Source of the DNA: Falsiroseomonas ponticola
GTDB taxonomy: Bacteria > Pseudomonadota > Alphaproteobacteria > Acetobacterales > Acetobacteraceae
Length of the DNA stretch: 64,000 nucleotides
Direction of reading: 5' to 3'
Assembly: GCF_016805305.1 (NCBI RefSeq)
Contig: NZ_JAERQN010000002.1
Coordinates: forward strand, 186,001 to 250,000
Each line of letters begins with the position of its first letter. The stretch's first letter is position 1. The notes beneath the pieces were generated by a model. The model saw only the letters and a program-made list of their open reading frames with translations. It had not been told where the DNA came from and did no database searches. The position numbers were made by a program, and so were the translations under genes. Below are positions 193 through 42,070 of the stretch, piece by piece.

Positions 193-1139
193 GGGGCGAT
201 TTCGAGCGTGACGAGCGCGGCCCGGAGGGCTGGGCCGAACGCCGCCTGCCGCCGGAGGGCAGCCATGCCAGCGGCCGCGGCTACGGCCCCGGCGGCCCCG
301 CCGCCGGCCTGACGCCCCGCCCGCGCCCCAACCCCGGCGGCCCGCCGGAGGGTGGCTGGCGGGACAGCGACCTCGACCGCCTCTGCGGCCCCGCCGCCGT
401 CACGGCCGCCTTCGCCGTGCGGCCCGATGCCGTGCTGCGGCTGTTCTACACGGAGACGCGCAAGCGGGAGGCCGGGCCGGTCTGCGCCATCATGGCGAAG
501 AACCGCCGCCCCTACCGGGAGGTCTCGCCGGAGGAGATGATCCGCATCGCCGGCACGGAGCATCATGGCGGCATCTGCGCCATCGCCGTGCCGCGGGCGG
601 TGCCGGAACTCGGCGCCGGGCCCTTCCCCCCGGCCCTGCTGGCCGCGCCGGTGCTGCCGCTGCTGGACGGCATCGGCAACCCGCACAACCTCGGCGCCAT
701 CGCGCGCTCCGCCGCCTTCTTCGGCTGCACGGGCATGCTGCTGTCGGGGGACCCGCGCCAGGCGGGGCTGTCGGACGCCGCCTATCGCACGGCGGAGGGG
801 GGGCTGGAGCACCTGGCGCTGATGAAGCTGGCCAACCCCGCCATCGCGCTGCGGGCGCTGGCGCCGAAATTCACGACGGTGGCCGCGGTCGCCGCCGGCG
901 GCATGGCCCCCGCGGACCTGCCCCGCAACAAGCCGTTCGTGCTGGTGCTGGGCAATGAGGAACGGGGCCTCCCCGGCCTCACCATCGCCGCCTGCGCCCA
1001 CCGCGTGACCCTGCCGGGCAGCGGCCATGTGCAGAGCCTGAACGTCTCGGTCGCGGCGGCGGTGCTGATCCATGCGATGGGGATGCCGAAGGCCGAGGCG
1101 GCGGCGAAGGCGGAGGCATCGCCAACCCCGCCCGCGTGA
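189..1139 (+). CDS. TrmH/SpoU-family RNA 2'-O-ribose methyltransferase
   Basis: SPOUT-class enzyme that transfers methyl from SAM to a ribose 2'-OH of rRNA or tRNA. Residues 1-65 are Gly/Pro/Arg-rich and probably disordered. About 70-145 match the SpoU substrate-binding domain, and about 155-305 form the knotted SPOUT domain. The three SpoU motifs are visible: NPHNLGAIARSA, VLVLGNEERGLPG and SLNVSVAAAVLIHA. The GTG start overlaps the upstream stop by 4 bp. A shorter start near the binding domain is possible because the N-terminal tail is not a conserved fold. The target nucleotide is unknown; RlmB- or TrmH-like roles are equally possible. Confidence 0.85.
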   Translation: MRGDFERDERGPEGWAERRLPPEGSHASGRGYGPGGPAAGLTPRPRPNPGGPPEGGWRDSDLDRLCGPAAVTAAFAVRPDAVLRLFYTETRKREAGPVCAIMAKNRRPYREVSPEEMIRIAGTEHHGGICAIAVPRAVPELGAGPFPPALLAAPVLPLLDGIGNPHNLGAIARSAAFFGCTGMLLSGDPRQAGLSDAAYRTAEGGLEHLALMKLANPAIALRALAPKFTTVAAVAAGGMAPADLPRNKPFVLVLGNEERGLPGLTIAACAHRVTLPGSGHVQSLNVSVAAAVLIHAMGMPKAEAAAKAEASPTPPA

Positions 1140-1201
1140 CTTGCCCGCCCCTGCCCAACCGGCGCACCCTTTCCGAAACCGGGCAGGGCAGGGGCACCAA
1201 C

Positions 1202-2194
1202 ATGCTGAACCGACGCACCATCCTCGCTTCCACCGGCGCGCTGCTCGCCGCCCCGGCGCTGGCGCAGCCCGTGGCGGGCGGGCGCACCGTGCGGCTCATC
1301 GTGCCCTTCCCGCCGGGCGGCGCGGTGGACATCCTCGCCCGCCTCATCGCCGAACGCCTCGCCCCCGTGCTCGGCCAGGCCGTGGTGGTGGACAACCGCG
1401 GCGGCGCGGGCGGGCTGCTCGGCGCCGATGCGGTGGCGAAGGGGGACCGGGACGGCACCGTGCTCGGCGTCATCAGCGTCACCACCCTTTGCGCCGTGCA
1501 GTACATGACGGCGCGCATGCCCTTCGACCCGGCGCGGGACCTGGCGCCGGTCAGCCAGATCACCGATGGCGCGCTGCTCTGCGTGGTGAATGCGGAGACG
1601 GCGCGGCGGAACGGCTGGACCGATTTCCGCAAGCTCATCGAATGGAGCCGCGCCAACCCCGAGCAGGTGAAGATGGGCTCCTCCGGCCCCGGCACGAACA
1701 GCCACCTGAACATCGAGGCCATCAACCGCTTCGCCCAGGCGAAGATCCTGCACGTGCCCTATCGCGGCGGCGGCCCCGCCATCAACGACCTGCTGGCCGG
1801 CACCATCGACATGATGTTCGACGTCATGCCCGCCCTCATGCCGCATGTCGAAAGCGGCAAGTTCCTGGCCTTCGCCGTCAGCAGCCAGGCGCGGCTCGGC
1901 ATCCTGCCGGAGGTACCGGGGATGGGCGATTTCGCCGATCTCGGCCTGGGCGGGCACAACCTGGTCAACTGGAACGCCATCATGACGGCGGGCGGCACCC
2001 CCGCCCCGGTGGTGGCGCGGCTGCACCAGGCCATCCAGGCCGTCGCCGCCGATGCCGCCTTCCGGGACCGGCTGCGGCCGCTCGGCTACGGCACCGTCAC
2101 CAGCCCCACCCCCGCCGCGCTGACGGAGCTGGTGGAGCGGGAGCGCCCGCAATGGCGCCGGCTGGTGGAGATCAGCGGCGCGCGCCTCGATTGA
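1202..2194 (+). CDS. Bug-family (TTT) periplasmic solute-binding protein
   Basis: 330-residue receptor of the tripartite tricarboxylate transporter type. The start at ATG 1202 follows a GGGCAGGGGC purine stretch and gives a signal peptide with a twin-arginine-like NRRTILAS followed by ALAQP. Family hallmarks are RLIVPFPPGGAVDILAR near the N-terminus, VVVDNRGGAGG, and HVPYRGGGPAINDLLAG in the middle. These proteins bind carboxylates or other small organics in the periplasm, but the ligand cannot be predicted. No TctA/TctB membrane genes lie nearby, so it is an orphan receptor. It is one of four such receptors in the window. Confidence 0.88.
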   Translation: MLNRRTILASTGALLAAPALAQPVAGGRTVRLIVPFPPGGAVDILARLIAERLAPVLGQAVVVDNRGGAGGLLGADAVAKGDRDGTVLGVISVTTLCAVQYMTARMPFDPARDLAPVSQITDGALLCVVNAETARRNGWTDFRKLIEWSRANPEQVKMGSSGPGTNSHLNIEAINRFAQAKILHVPYRGGGPAINDLLAGTIDMMFDVMPALMPHVESGKFLAFAVSSQARLGILPEVPGMGDFADLGLGGHNLVNWNAIMTAGGTPAPVVARLHQAIQAVAADAAFRDRLRPLGYGTVTSPTPAALTELVERERPQWRRLVEISGARLD

Positions 2195-2214
2195 GGGCTG
2201 GCGATCGGGCCTCC

Positions 2215-2229
2215 GTTCCTGCTATGTTC
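2215..2229 (+). promoter_or_regulatory. Predicted LexA (SOS) box, copy A
   Basis: GTTC at 2215-2218, seven bases, then GTTC at 2226-2229. This matches the alphaproteobacterial LexA operator consensus GTTC-N7-GTTC exactly. It lies 20 bp after the Bug gene and 200 bp before the amine oxidase, so neither neighbour is an expected SOS gene. The same box heads a second related element at 41391-41405. LexA binding is inferred from the motif alone. Confidence 0.55.
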
Positions 2230-2320
2230 AGTCTGCCGCCGCCCCTTGCGTGTCCGGCACCCCGCGAAAACGGTGCTAAATCGCCTAAATCGGCATAAAC
2301 GGCTAAAAGGGGTTAGTGGC
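2215..2320 (+). repeat. SOS-box-headed intergenic repeat, copy A
   Basis: After the LexA-type box comes a 21-base segment (2260-2280, CCCCGCGAAAACGGTGCTAA plus A) that is identical to the reverse complement of 41330-41350. The next 40 bases (2281-2320) match copy B at 30 of 40 positions without gaps. This tail is an array of roughly 9-base units of the form GC-n-TAAA-CG. The region from the box to the 21-mer also shares blocks (CTATGTTC, CGTGTCCGGC versus CGCGTCCGGC). No transposase or long ORF is associated. The function is unknown; it could be an SOS-controlled small RNA or a mobile regulatory repeat. Confidence 0.7.
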
Positions 2321-2429
2321 CTCAATGTCACGGGCCGGCGCCTTGTTCCGGCCGCCGGGGCGGGCAAGACGATCACGCCTGCGTCACGCGTCGGTGGCCG
2401 CGCCGCCGCCCCGCCTACATGGACCCTGA

Positions 2430-3704
2430 ATGCCTCGCCTCCCCGCTGATCCCGACCTCCTCGTCATCGGCGCCGGTGCCGCCGGCATCGCCGCAGCCCG
2501 CACCGCCCTCGAAGCCGGCCACCGCGTGGTGGTGCTGGAAGCCCGCGGCCGGGTCGGCGGGCGGGCGGTGACGGATACCGCGCGGCTCGGCCTGCCCTAT
2601 GACCTCGGCGCCACCTGGCTGCACCAGGCCGCCACCAACCCGCTGGTGCCGCTGGCGCAGGCGCTTGGCGTCACGCTGCATGATTCGGACGCGCTGCGGC
2701 GCGAACGCAGCCAGGTCGGCGCCCGCGCCCTGACGGCGGAGGAGGATGCCGCCTATGCCGCCGCCTGGACCGCGGCGGAGGCGCGGATCGAGGCCGCCGC
2801 GACGGATGGCGGCCCCGACCGCAGCCTGGCGGAGGGCATGGGGGCGACCGGCCCCTGGGCACCGGCGATCGAGGGCTGGCAGGGCGACATCATCTCCGCC
2901 GCCCCGGCCGGGCGCGTCAGCCTGCACGACTTCCACGCCAATGCGCTGGAAGGCGGCAACCGCCTGCCGGAAGGCGGCTTCGGCGCGCTGGTGGCGCGGC
3001 TGGCGGAGGGCCTGCCGGTGGTGCTGGATGCCCCCGTCACGCGCCTCGCCTGGGGCGGGCGGCAGGCGGTGGCGGAAGGCCCCTTCGGCACGCTGCGCGC
3101 CCGCGCCGTGGTCGTGACCATCCCGGCCAGCCTGCTGGCCGCGGAGGCGATCCGCTTCGACCCGCCCCTGCCGGCGGCGGTGCTGCAGGCCGCGCACGAC
3201 CTGCCGCTGGGCCAGGTGGTGAAGGCGGGATTCCGGGTGGCGGGCGGGGAGCGCTTCGGCCTGCCGCCCTTCAGCTCCGTGGACCGCCTGGTCGCGCCGG
3301 GCGAGCCGCTGGTGGCGATGAGCCTCTTCCCCTTCGGGCGGCCCGTCATCTCCTGCCATGTCGGCGGCGATGCGGCGGCGGCGCTGGAGGCCGAGGGCGA
3401 TGCGGCGGTCGCGGCCTTCATGCGCGCGGAGATCGCCACCCGCTTCGGCGCGGATGCGCTGCGCTGTCTCGTGCCCGGCCCGATCGTCTCGGAATGGGGA
3501 CGGGACCCGTGGTCGCGCGGCGTGTACAGCTATGCGCGAATCGGTCGCGCCGCCGCGCGCGCCATCCTGGCCGAGCCGCTCGCGGACGGCCGGCTCTGCC
3601 TGGCGGGAGAGGCCACGGACCAGGGCATGGCCGGCACCGTCGGCGGGGCTTGGCGGTCCGGGGTGGGGGCGGGTCGGCGCGCGATGGCGGCATTGGCGGG
3701 GTGA
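2430..3704 (+). CDS. Flavin-dependent amine oxidase family protein
   Basis: 424-residue FAD oxidoreductase of the monoamine/polyamine oxidase family, which oxidises amines to imines with FAD. The N-terminal dinucleotide fold VIGAGAAGIAAARTALEAG (about 11-29) ends in EARGRVGGR, the diagnostic amine-oxidase FAD motif. DLGATWLH and the C-terminal GEATDQGMAGTVGGAWRSG complete the flavin site. There is no signal peptide, so it is probably cytoplasmic. The start at ATG 2430 puts the Rossmann motif close to the N-terminus, as expected. Its stop overlaps the start of the STAS-MlaE gene by one base. The amine substrate cannot be told from sequence. Confidence 0.85.
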   Translation: MPRLPADPDLLVIGAGAAGIAAARTALEAGHRVVVLEARGRVGGRAVTDTARLGLPYDLGATWLHQAATNPLVPLAQALGVTLHDSDALRRERSQVGARALTAEEDAAYAAAWTAAEARIEAAATDGGPDRSLAEGMGATGPWAPAIEGWQGDIISAAPAGRVSLHDFHANALEGGNRLPEGGFGALVARLAEGLPVVLDAPVTRLAWGGRQAVAEGPFGTLRARAVVVTIPASLLAAEAIRFDPPLPAAVLQAAHDLPLGQVVKAGFRVAGGERFGLPPFSSVDRLVAPGEPLVAMSLFPFGRPVISCHVGGDAAAALEAEGDAAVAAFMRAEIATRFGADALRCLVPGPIVSEWGRDPWSRGVYSYARIGRAAARAILAEPLADGRLCLAGEATDQGMAGTVGGAWRSGVGAGRRAMAALAG

Positions 3705-40091: not shown

Positions 40092-41282
40092 ATGACCTCC
40101 CCCACGCCCCTCGCCGGCCTCCGCGTGCTTGAATTCACCCACATGATCATGGGGCCCTCGGCCGGCATGGCGCTGGCGGACCTGGGTGCCGAGGTCATCA
40201 AGGTGGAGCCGGCGCCCGATGGCGATTCGACCCGGCGGCTGACGGGCTCCGGCACCGGCTTCTACGCCGCCTTCGGGCGCGGGCGCCGCAGCCTCTGCGT
40301 CGACATGAAGAAGCCGGAGGGCATCGCGCTGGTGCAGCGCCTGGCGGCGCGGGCGGATGTGCTGGTGGAGAATTTCCGGCCCGGCGCCATGGCGAAGCTG
40401 GGGCTGGGCTACGAGGACCTGGCCAGGGTCAATCCGGGGCTCGTCTATGCCTCCTGCAAGGGGTTCCTGCCCGGGCCCTATGAGCACCGGACGGCACTCG
40501 ACGAGGTCGTGCAGATGATGGGGGGCCTCGCCTACATGACCGGGCCCACGGGGCGGCCGCTGCGGGCGGGCAGCAGCGTGATCGACATCATGGGCGGGCT
40601 TTCCGTGACGGTCGCGATCCTGGCCGCGCTGCGGGAGCGGGAGGGCACGGGCCGCGGCGGGCATGTGCAGGCGGGGCTCTTCGAATCGGTGGCGCTGCTG
40701 ATGTCCCAGCACATGGCGCAGGCCCATATGACGGGCGTCGAGCCGCCGCCCATGTCCACGCGCCTGCCGGCCTGGCCGGTCTACGACATCTTCGACACGG
40801 CCGATGGCGGCCAGGTCTTCGTGGGCGTCGTCACCGACACTTCCTGGCCCATCTTCTGCAACGCCTTCGGGCTCGGGGACATGGCGACCGACCCCAGCCT
40901 CGCCACCAAGAACCAGCGGGTGGAGGCCCGGGCGCGGACCATCCCCCGCATCGCCGCGGCGCTGGCGGCCTATACCAAGGCGGAGCTGATGGCGAAGTGC
41001 GAGGCGCTCGGCCTGCCCTTCGCGCCGATCGGGCGGCCGGCGGAGCTGTTCGAGGACCCGCACCTCAACGGATCGGGCGGGCTGGTGCCGATGACGCTGC
41101 CGGATGGGCGGCCGATCAAGCTGCCGGCGCTGCCGGTCTCGATCGACGGCGCCCGGCCCGGCGGCGCGGGGGATCTGCGGCCGCCCGGGGCGGATGGCGC
41201 GACGATCGCGGCGGAGCTGGGCTATTCGGCGGAGGAGATCGCGGCGCTGCGCCAGGCGGGGGTGATCACGGGCGGGGTGTGA
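40092..41282 (+). CDS. CaiB/BaiF family (class III) CoA-transferase
   Basis: 396 residues. Class III CoA-transferases move CoA between carboxylic acids through an aspartyl-CoA intermediate. The likely catalytic Asp165 is in SSVIDIMGGLSV. Family features are LAGLRVLEFTHMIMGPSAGMALADLGAEVIKVE, the CoA region VLVENFRPGAMAKLGLGYEDL, and the C-terminal RPAELFEDPHLNGSGGLV. The length is standard. It ends just before the second SOS-box element at 41290, which points back into its 3' end on the other strand. Confidence 0.9.
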   Translation: MTSPTPLAGLRVLEFTHMIMGPSAGMALADLGAEVIKVEPAPDGDSTRRLTGSGTGFYAAFGRGRRSLCVDMKKPEGIALVQRLAARADVLVENFRPGAMAKLGLGYEDLARVNPGLVYASCKGFLPGPYEHRTALDEVVQMMGGLAYMTGPTGRPLRAGSSVIDIMGGLSVTVAILAALREREGTGRGGHVQAGLFESVALLMSQHMAQAHMTGVEPPPMSTRLPAWPVYDIFDTADGGQVFVGVVTDTSWPIFCNAFGLGDMATDPSLATKNQRVEARARTIPRIAAALAAYTKAELMAKCEALGLPFAPIGRPAELFEDPHLNGSGGLVPMTLPDGRPIKLPALPVSIDGARPGGAGDLRPPGADGATIAAELGYSAEEIAALRQAGVITGGV

Positions 41283-41289
41283 CTTTTTA

Positions 41290-41405
41290 GTCGCTAACCC
41301 GTTTAAGCCGATTATGCCGTTTAAGCGGGTTTAGCACCGTTTTCGCGGGGGGGGCTCAGCGCCGGACGCGCCTCCGGCGGTGGCCGGACCGAACATAGGG
41401 CGAAC
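41290..41405 (-). repeat. SOS-box-headed intergenic repeat, copy B
   Basis: Read on the minus strand, a LexA-type box is followed by the 21-mer shared with copy A (41350-41330) and a 40-base tail (41329-41290). The tail reads as about 9-base units: GCTTAAACG, GCATAATCG, GCTTAAACG, GGTTAGCGA. GCTAAACCCG at its start can pair with CGGGTTAGC at its end (one bulged A), with an inner TTAA/TTAA pair. The element sits in the 146-bp gap between the CaiB-type and LysE genes, 39 kb from copy A and inverted relative to it. Confidence 0.7.
41391..41405 (-). promoter_or_regulatory. Predicted LexA (SOS) box, copy B
   Basis: GAAC (41391-41394), seven bases, GAAC (41402-41405) on the plus strand, which is GTTC-N7-GTTC on the minus strand. 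It matches the alphaproteobacterial LexA consensus exactly and shares CTATGTTC with copy A at 2222-2229. The lysE stop lies 24 bp to the right, so the box is downstream of lysE and not at its promoter. Confidence 0.55.
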
Positions 41406-41428
41406 AAAACCCTTCCGCCACCCTTTTC

Positions 41429-42070
41429 TCACCCCGGCCGCTTCGCCACCGCCAGCCCCAGGCCGAGCGCGATCATCGCCCCGCCCGAGGCCTCCCGCAG
41501 CCGTCGCACCAGGGTCGGCCGCGCCGCCGCGCCCTGCCGCAGCCGGCCGGCGGCCAGCGCCACCGCGACATCGGCCAGCGTGTTCAGCAGCACCGACACC
41601 GTCCCCAGCACCACGAATTGCAGCCCGGCATGGCCCGCGGCGGGATCGACGAATTGCGGCAGGAAGGCGAGGAAGAAGGCCGCGGTCTTGGGGTTCAGCG
41701 CCTCCACCACCACCCCCTCCCGGAAGGCGCGGCGGGGGCCGCCAAGGGGAGGCATCGGGGGCGCCACGGGGCCGGCCAGGGCCTCCGCCCGCGCGGTGCG
41801 GATGGTGCGCCAGCCGAGCCAGACGAGGTACAGCGCGCCGGCCCATTTCAGGGCGTTGAACAGCTCGGCACTCGCCAGCACCAGGGCGGAGACGCCGAGG
41901 CTGCCGGCCAGCACATGCGCCATGCCGCCCAAGCCGGTGCCGAGGCTGCTGGCGATGCCCTCCGCCCTTCCGCCCGCCAGCGTCCGCGCCGCGACATAGA
42001 ACAGGCCGGGGCCCGGCGTGATGGCCAGCAGCAGCGCGGCGGCCAGGAACAGGGGGAGCGCCTCCGTCAT
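41429..42070 (-). CDS. LysE-family amino-acid exporter
   Basis: 213 residues with about six membrane helices. The N-terminal hallmark ITPGPGLFYVAARTLAGGRAEGIASSLG is the LysE/RhtB signature, and EALNPKTAAFFLAFLPQFVDP is the conserved middle motif. It exports amino acids or similar small metabolites across the inner membrane. The start overlaps the PaiB stop by 4 bp, forming a two-gene unit that diverges from the MocR-type regulator at 42819. That regulator is therefore a candidate controller. Confidence 0.9.
   Translation of the reverse strand: MTEALPLFLAAALLLAITPGPGLFYVAARTLAGGRAEGIASSLGTGLGGMAHVLAGSLGVSALVLASAELFNALKWAGALYLVWLGWRTIRTARAEALAGPVAPPMPPLGGPRRAFREGVVVEALNPKTAAFFLAFLPQFVDPAAGHAGLQFVVLGTVSVLLNTLADVAVALAAGRLRQGAAARPTLVRRLREASGGAMIALGLGLAVAKRPG

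Follow-up and report, generated by a model that had tools for sequence, protein, structure and literature searches.

Two intergenic elements in the window

The window, by which we mean the whole 64-kb stretch of Falsiroseomonas ponticola DNA analyzed here, contains two intergenic elements of the same build. Copy A lies on the plus strand behind a TctC/Bug receptor gene and copy B on the minus strand behind a LysE-type exporter gene. Each consists of a promoter-like head with a GTTC-N7-GTTC box, a spacer, and a core of ~9-bp units containing TAA. The features are as follows.

1136-2194, plus strand: TctC/Bug receptor gene next to copy A (Pfam PF03401); stop to box, 20 bp
2198-2204, plus strand: -35-like element CTGGCGA of copy A, ~18 to 19 bp ahead of the -10-like TATGTT (from sequence, column counts, and footprint)
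2215-2229, plus strand: GTTC-N7-GTTC box of copy A, GTTCCTGCTATGTTC, of the LexA-operator type, overlapping the -10-like TATGTT (2223-2228)
2235 (±1-2), plus strand: predicted transcription start of copy A, from the conserved purine 7 bases past the -10-like element
2262-2332, plus strand: core of copy A, ~9-bp TAA units (match to model R1 at C22:188262-188332, E 1.6e-17)
2316-2331, plus strand: terminal imperfect palindrome of copy A, GTGGCCTCAATGTCAC (from sequence, with modest family-wide pair support)
2430-3704, plus strand: flavin amine oxidase gene next to copy A (Pfam PF01593)
40092-41282, plus strand: CaiB/BaiF-type CoA-transferase gene, convergent with copy B (best NCBIfam match NF052585, 235 bits, below the cut-off of 750)
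41277-41348, minus strand: core of copy B, ~9-bp TAA units (match to model R1 at C22:227277-227348, E 8.3e-21)
41279-41294, minus strand: terminal imperfect palindrome of copy B, GCGACTAAAAAGTCAC, overlapping the stop codon (41280-41282) of the convergent CaiB-type gene
41391-41405, minus strand: GTTC-N7-GTTC box of copy B, GTTCGCCCTATGTTC (exact pattern search)
41416-41421, minus strand: -35-like element GTGGCG of copy B (from sequence, column counts, and footprint)
41429-42070, minus strand: LysE-type exporter gene next to copy B (Pfam PF01810); stop to box, 23 bp

A sequence-only reading of this stretch had placed copy A, headed by a perfect GTTC-N7-GTTC box, between a Bug receptor and an amine oxidase gene, and both assignments were borne out by Pfam. 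The box is present at 2215-2229, and the sole other exact site in the window is the one at 41391-41405 (minus strand). The 21-mer CCCCGCGAAAACGGTGCTAAA at 2260-2280 recurs exactly and inverted at 41330-41350, as had been described, and the 40 bases past it are identical between the copies at 30 of 40 ungapped positions (counted by eye). The distance between box and 21-mer is variable (30 bp in copy A, 40 bp in copy B, and up to ~130 bp elsewhere). By itself, the number of boxes in the window is weak evidence: from shuffled sequences, a mean of 0.42 was expected, and 10 of 100 shuffles contained two or more.

No Rfam family matched the window at the gathering threshold, and a strict Escherichia coli promoter scan returned nothing at copy A or copy B. 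No intrinsic terminator was found by a scan at the two copies. We rejected a phage or plasmid origin because copy B had no blastn match among 50,697 phage and 72,556 plasmid records.

Census and anatomy of the element family

An 18-mer taken from the 21-mer had 29 matches in the F. ponticola genome (up to three mismatches; 12 exact), compared to 3 for the reversed control. An exact box lay within 170 bp upstream in 18 of these 29 core-chosen matches, against ~0.04 expected by our arithmetic from 102 exact boxes, both strands, and 6.73 Mb. The association of box and 21-mer, which had been suspected from two copies, is thus beyond chance. From 29 aligned copies we built a sequence-only core model (R1). 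It had 56 matches in F. ponticola (genome G000), 55 in Falsiroseomonas algicola (G200), 55 in Falsiroseomonas stagni (G209), and 34 in genome G205, and none in the remaining 11 of the 15 genus genomes searched. A search over 39 relatives returned the identical four carriers. Over 200 family members, with stricter filters and a sample that did not include the other three carriers, only F. ponticola had matches. Copies are also common to G205 and the Acetobacteraceae metagenome-assembled genome D4_MAG_00010. The sequence-only reading was to be given up if the genome and its relatives held no further copies; the census contradicts that outcome.

We analyzed 172 of the 200 R1 matches (56 from F. 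ponticola, 43 from F. algicola, 43 from F. stagni, and 30 from G205), leaving out 12 of 55 in F. algicola, 12 of 55 in F. stagni (loci L416 and L417 among them), and 4 of 34 in G205. The alignment behind the model excluded 12 of 41 F. ponticola copies (eleven that were short, tandem, or odd, plus L018). Since 10 of the 29 model copies and 12 of the 41 listed copies had been chosen by their box, column counts over F. ponticola copies are biased, and the between-species footprint (below) and the 18 of 29 core-chosen matches are better checks. The F. ponticola assembly is listed at 6.83% contamination, which calls for caution over single copies on small contigs.

The box and the core keep a fixed arrangement. 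Of 172 copies, 88 had an exact box within 170 bp upstream, on the strand of the core. The three other placements (upstream on the opposite strand and up to 170 bp downstream on each strand) had no exact box in any of the 172, so all 88 exact-box cases agree in the order and strand of head and unit row. Counting relaxed boxes, whose pattern presupposes part of the motif, the number rose to 136 of 172, leaving 36 copies without a relaxed box and 84 without an exact one. Many copies carry box variants, with GTTT or GTTG as the first half or GATC, GGTC, or GTTT as the second. Several copies without an exact box have another -10-like hexamer at that place (TATGAT, TATGGT, or TATATT, by eye), and at least two cores are too near a gene stop for a promoter (C3:160596, directly behind it, and C11:85707, ~30 bp away).

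As read from the alignments, a typical copy begins with a sigma-70-like promoter, which GTTC-N7-GTTC overlaps, and continues with a C-rich spacer and then ~9-bp TAA units. In the aligned copies, a stop codon on the same strand (median of 30 bp before the box; interquartile range [IQR], 23 to 53; n = 98) is followed by an A/T patch, a -35-like CTGGC or TTGGC, ~18 bp, and a -10-like TATGTT within the box. Seven bases past the -10-like element (column 20), 30 of 34 F. ponticola copies have a purine. The spacer has a median length of 52 bp (range, 21 to 127; n = 132, with spacers below 20 bp excluded). The core begins with CGCGAAAACGGTGCTAAA and continues with ~9-bp units, e.g., CGGCATAAT and CGGCTTAAA, often with the imperfect palindrome GYGRCTAAAAAGYCAC at its end. 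In the few copies measured, the whole element was ~130 to 210 bp long. At L290 of F. ponticola (C28:123232-123515), three tandem cores in 109-bp steps share a single degenerate promoter, GTTCCTGTTATGGTC. Another dispersed repeat, of the GGGAGAGGGTTGGGTGAGGGGGG type, lies within or beside the spacer at L223, L229, L241, and L180.

A structured RNA with a conserved fold was unsupported. RNAalifold gave a consensus of 0 pairs over 29 cores, and the predicted F. ponticola transcripts folded only slightly better than shuffles (mean z of -0.75; SD, 1.18; n = 40). The terminal palindrome showed a small effect: pairing was 0.786 compared to a shuffle mean of 0.744, and 0 of 5,000 shuffles reached 0.786. 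T[TA]AG[CT] occurs in 101 of 172 copies, and all five outer pairs occur in 28 of 56 distinct 16-mers. We also rejected a peptide encoded by the core: one frame is open (GTG CTA AA..), yet the third positions of the CGG codons hardly vary (by inspection).

The box as a probable operator, its conservation, and rival explanations

The LexA site of alphaproteobacteria is given as GTTC-N7-GTTC in PMC3323433 and PMC12907096, and GTTCttgttatGTTC is the LexA box of two Caulobacter SOS genes in PMC12700426. We found the LexA DNA-binding domain (LexA_DNA_bind) in 14 of 15 congeners, F. ponticola included, and GTTCTA[TG]GTAGGTTC near lexA in 14 of 14. Exact boxes in the F. ponticola genome also lie at imuA (GTTCTTGCTATGTTC; the ImuA call is below the curated cut-off, with 84 of 150 bits), at a radical-SAM repair gene (TIGR03916; GTTCATGTTATGTTC), at the gene for UdgX (TIGR03914; GTTCTATATTTGTTC), and at recF (TIGR00611; GTTCCGTCTTCGTTC, ~230 bp ahead of the called start); the boxes of imuA and of the radical-SAM gene share TATGTTC. 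In total, the genome has 102 exact boxes, compared to 32 for the reversed control. Each of the four carriers has 33 sites of the promoter-overlapping form GTTCNNNNTAYGTTC, ten congeners have 2 to 7, and genome G206 has 29 (reversed controls, 0 to 1). F. ponticola had the highest box count among 200 family members, but five other Acetobacteraceae genomes reached 20 to 24, so the count is not unique by itself. At L184 of F. ponticola, a gene for an S24-type (LexA-like) repressor diverges from an exact box, GTTCCTGTTTTGTTC.

The elements largely occupy the same places in different species. Flanking DNA was shared between species for 164 of 172 copies, which fell into 53 groups, 14 of them with all four species; grouping required at least one matching flank, and two groups are not one-to-one (one with a tandem triple and one with two F. 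ponticola loci). At the copy A locus, the box of G205 is GTTCCTGCTACGTTC; the boxes of the copy B locus (LysE/CaiB) are GTTCGCCCTATGTTC in F. ponticola, GTTCGCTTTATGTTC in F. algicola, GTTCCCTTTATGTTC in F. stagni, and GTTCGTATTATGTTC in G205. We drew a footprint from 192 directed between-species comparisons, in which reference copies were selected for an exact box and pairs with an exact box on both sides count twice. Identity was 0.90 to 0.95 in GTTC, 0.80 to 0.96 in TATGTTC, and 0.86 to 0.96 in the -35 element (-16 to -13), compared to 0.39 to 0.77 in the adjacent bases (-12 to -1 and +15 to +21) and 0.58 to 0.75 at four bases inside the box. A lesser peak stands at the predicted start (+22 to +24; 0.78 to 0.83), and an upstream stretch extending into the gene had 0.58 to 0.82. 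Because both halves are kept at fixed loci while adjacent bases drift, the operator is under selection, beyond the descent of a repeat. By these alignments, the element family is old and selected. The claim that GTTC-N7-GTTC is a LexA operator has gained in strength from the conserved halves, the promoter-like frame, the form shared with repair genes, and the Caulobacter boxes, and we regard the box of the elements as very probably a LexA operator.

Mobility had been raised as an alternative in the sequence-only reading. For the present, mobile repeats are unsupported in view of the shared flanks, as is recent transposition, since positions are shared between species; gain or loss in the past is the part of the idea that stands. 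An element lies between Era and its convergent neighbor in F. ponticola and F. stagni, whereas in G205 three bases separate the stop codons of the two genes, and there is no such element at the Era locus of G152, G203, and G206, where the neighbor is kept (by eye). This presence and absence between species shows past gain or loss at the locus. The locus was compared in 15 genomes (L420 to L434), and that of F. algicola has a different flank.

At the LysE-CaiB locus of G205 (L245/L226), a ParD (TIGR02606)/ParE (PF05016) toxin-antitoxin pair separates the LexA-type promoter from the core, and the ParE frame ends within the TAA units of the core; the other three carriers have a short element there. 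As a lead, the unit row may act as an array of in-frame stop codons that closes gene cassettes, with ParD/ParE as the only clear case of cargo that we noticed.

The unit row itself differs in G205, the most distant of the four carriers, where its copies have changed together. The second unit is GTGCTAAA in 26 of 30 G205 cores analyzed (counted by eye), compared to CGCGCATAA-type units in the other carriers. Identity between copies of F. ponticola and G205 was 0.686 at the same locus (n = 25), 0.653 between different loci, and 0.721 within G205, where copies were found with the F. ponticola model and may be a biased set. Among the three closer species, copies at the same locus (0.83 to 0.84) were more alike than those at different loci (0.72 to 0.74). 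Either the preference of a trans-acting binder shifted, or the copies convert each other. An RNA-level binder is favored because row and promoter hold one order and one strand.

The strongest rival, though an unlikely one, is a DNA repeat of the REP/BIME kind, whose row would be bound by a nucleoid protein or topoisomerase acting to relieve supercoiling between convergent genes and whose promoter-like head would be kept by descent. Gene setting fits this. Among 157 copies, 79 lie between convergent, 67 between codirectional, and 11 between divergent genes, as given by a simple codon-composition caller that left 15 of the 172 copies with one side uncalled and hence out; 7 of 43 junctions in the window are convergent. 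The core start lies a tight distance from the convergent stop (median, 74 bp; IQR, 66 to 82; n = 120), so the row finishes near the stop of the opposing gene. The row is TpA rich within a GC-rich genome, and some cores have no promoter. REPs of the GTAG and CGTC superfamilies are likewise multicopy and intergenic and lie near stops, mostly between convergent or codirectional genes (PMC3733652). However, the elements are longer (REPs, 20 to 40 bp), have a conserved promoter with an operator, and largely share their positions between species. The core has no REP palindrome: we found no GTAG/CGTC-tagged hairpin of 6 to 9 bp, only a TTAG-type palindrome of 5 to 6 bp in part of the copies. Nor would a DNA repeat predict the single order and strand of the exact-box cases, and descent alone is insufficient for operator halves kept at fixed loci while adjacent bases drift.

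Very unlikely, in our view, is a Rho-dependent terminator or insulator at 3' ends, with the C-rich spacer as the rut site, the row as the termination zone, and the LexA promoter added or retained. The spacer composition (C, 0.454, and G, 0.306, with more C than G in 110 of 132 spacers), the negative scan for intrinsic terminators, and the end of the row at the opposing stop agree with it, but it leaves both the genome-wide unit change in G205 and the conserved operator unexplained. Least credible is the idea that GTTC-N7-GTTC is the site of another regulator, or that its first GTTC is part of an unusual promoter: the variant halves of many copies and the overlap of the second half with the -10 element suit it, but lexA, imuA, and other repair genes have the same form (with TATGTTC at imuA and the radical-SAM gene), the published alphaproteobacterial LexA site matches, and we know of no sigma-70 contact that reaches the first GTTC half.

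Proposed role and wider reach

We propose, with a probability of roughly 0.55, that copies A and B are members of an old family of LexA-controlled noncoding transcription units, with the unit row as the probable effector. In undamaged cells, LexA on GTTC-N7-GTTC would block a sigma-70-type promoter (CTGGC, ~18 bp, TATGTT), and RecA-driven cleavage of LexA after damage would let the promoter fire. The RNA would start ~7 bases past the -10 element, cover the C-rich spacer and all ~9-nt units (CGGCNTAAN type) of the row, and finish close to the opposing gene's stop codon. Its row might offer a single trans-acting factor, most likely one that binds RNA, a multivalent platform for binding or a decoy. 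LexA control is what we infer from the known identity of the operator, and transcription from the shape and polarity of the promoter. A damage-induced small RNA, as the sequence-only reading had suggested, is plausible, and the element position and key letters kept across species make it the probable product. The platform or decoy idea arises from the several like, same-strand sites in the row, changed together at most G205 loci; the decoy role is speculative.

The elements recall several known systems. Alphaproteobacterial LexA/SOS promoters (imuA and the Caulobacter SOS genes) have the same direct-repeat operator, with the TATGTTC half over a -10-like element; in contrast, the element copies that we read have no protein gene directly behind the promoter, apart from the ParD/ParE case in G205, and dozens of like copies run into a unit row. 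Correia elements and other promoter-bearing small repeats are dispersed and bring a promoter and regulator sites with them. The present elements differ in their LexA-type operator and largely shared positions, and we did not notice terminal inverted repeats in an unsystematic look. Multicopy small RNA families (cuckoo RNAs, AbcR, and Qrr) consist of many homologous, promoter-driven noncoding units; in our family, no conserved stem-loop was found, the effector part would be a row of ~9-nt units, and control would be of the LexA type. LexA also controls dispersed elements such as integron integrases and the ISCR transposase (PMC3108266 and PMC13393415), whereas in the copies that we read from Falsiroseomonas, we noticed neither a recombinase nor a transposase gene. 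Our literature searches, with most subscription papers outside reach, found no paper on elements like these.

Related patterns in G206 and in genus g16 are leads outside the core claim. G206 is without the core. Among its 29 boxes, GTTCGCATTATGTTC accounts for 9 of the 17 listed. At 15 loci that we read, CTTTGGC/TTTTTGGC units precede the box on its own strand (30 units in all and 0 in other placements). That these T-rich units lie upstream of the box and not downstream counts against the proposed LexA-controlled transcription units. CACTTTGGC/TTTTTGGC rows were seen upstream of the box at L400 to L408, L410 to L412, L414, and L415; TTCAAGGAG stands upstream in 9 of 15 loci and AAGTCCAGC ~13 bp downstream in 7 of 15.

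From g16, we sampled 20 boxes (L436 to L455), comprising 15 of the 23 in G015 and 5 of the 18 in G161. At 15 of these 20 loci, the 550 bp downstream of the box contain TTTGTCC[GA]AA (ATTTGTCCGAAAC units) on the same strand, with 44 units in all, 0 in other placements, and 1 to 10 per locus; as many as ten follow each other in 42-bp steps. Three of the 15 unit-bearing loci have the unit inside a gene. Six of the 20 boxes run straight into transposase-like genes (L436, L437, L439, L445, L446, and L454), of which the two tested are DUF4096 (PF13340) and the four others are alike by motif and eye. All six have GATTTGTCC (with a TTG leucine codon) at one coding position, a motif as in the noncoding rows. 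A search for the DUF4096-type motif over all loci examined had matches in g16 only. In 13 of 172 Falsiroseomonas copies, TTTGTCC stands on the strand of the core, no more than 120 bp upstream of it, compared to 0, 0, and 1 in the other placements. With g16, a second genus has LexA-type promoters joined to different same-strand unit rows, a hint that there may be a wider class. More tentatively, Acetobacteraceae might possess SOS-induced "array RNAs," i.e., dozens of LexA-controlled noncoding units per genome with lineage-specific rows (CGGCNTAAN in the Falsiroseomonas clade and ATTTGTCCGAAAC in g16). Such RNAs could serve as multivalent decoys or guides for a coevolving factor during damage and could perhaps be linked to the LexA-boxed DUF4096 genes of g16 that keep TTTGTCC. 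We consider this idea possible but on balance doubtful.

If the LexA-controlled units are real, 28 of the 33 GTTCNNNNTAYGTTC sites in the F. ponticola genome (by our assignment) belong to noncoding elements and not to repair genes. The SOS response would then induce many RNAs for which our searches turned up no name. Even without induction, LexA could be titrated by the ~30 extra exact operators in each genome. With the row of G205 changed at shared loci, a comparison of carriers and noncarriers offers a way to search for a trans-acting partner. A LexA box distant from repair genes, finally, need not be noise.
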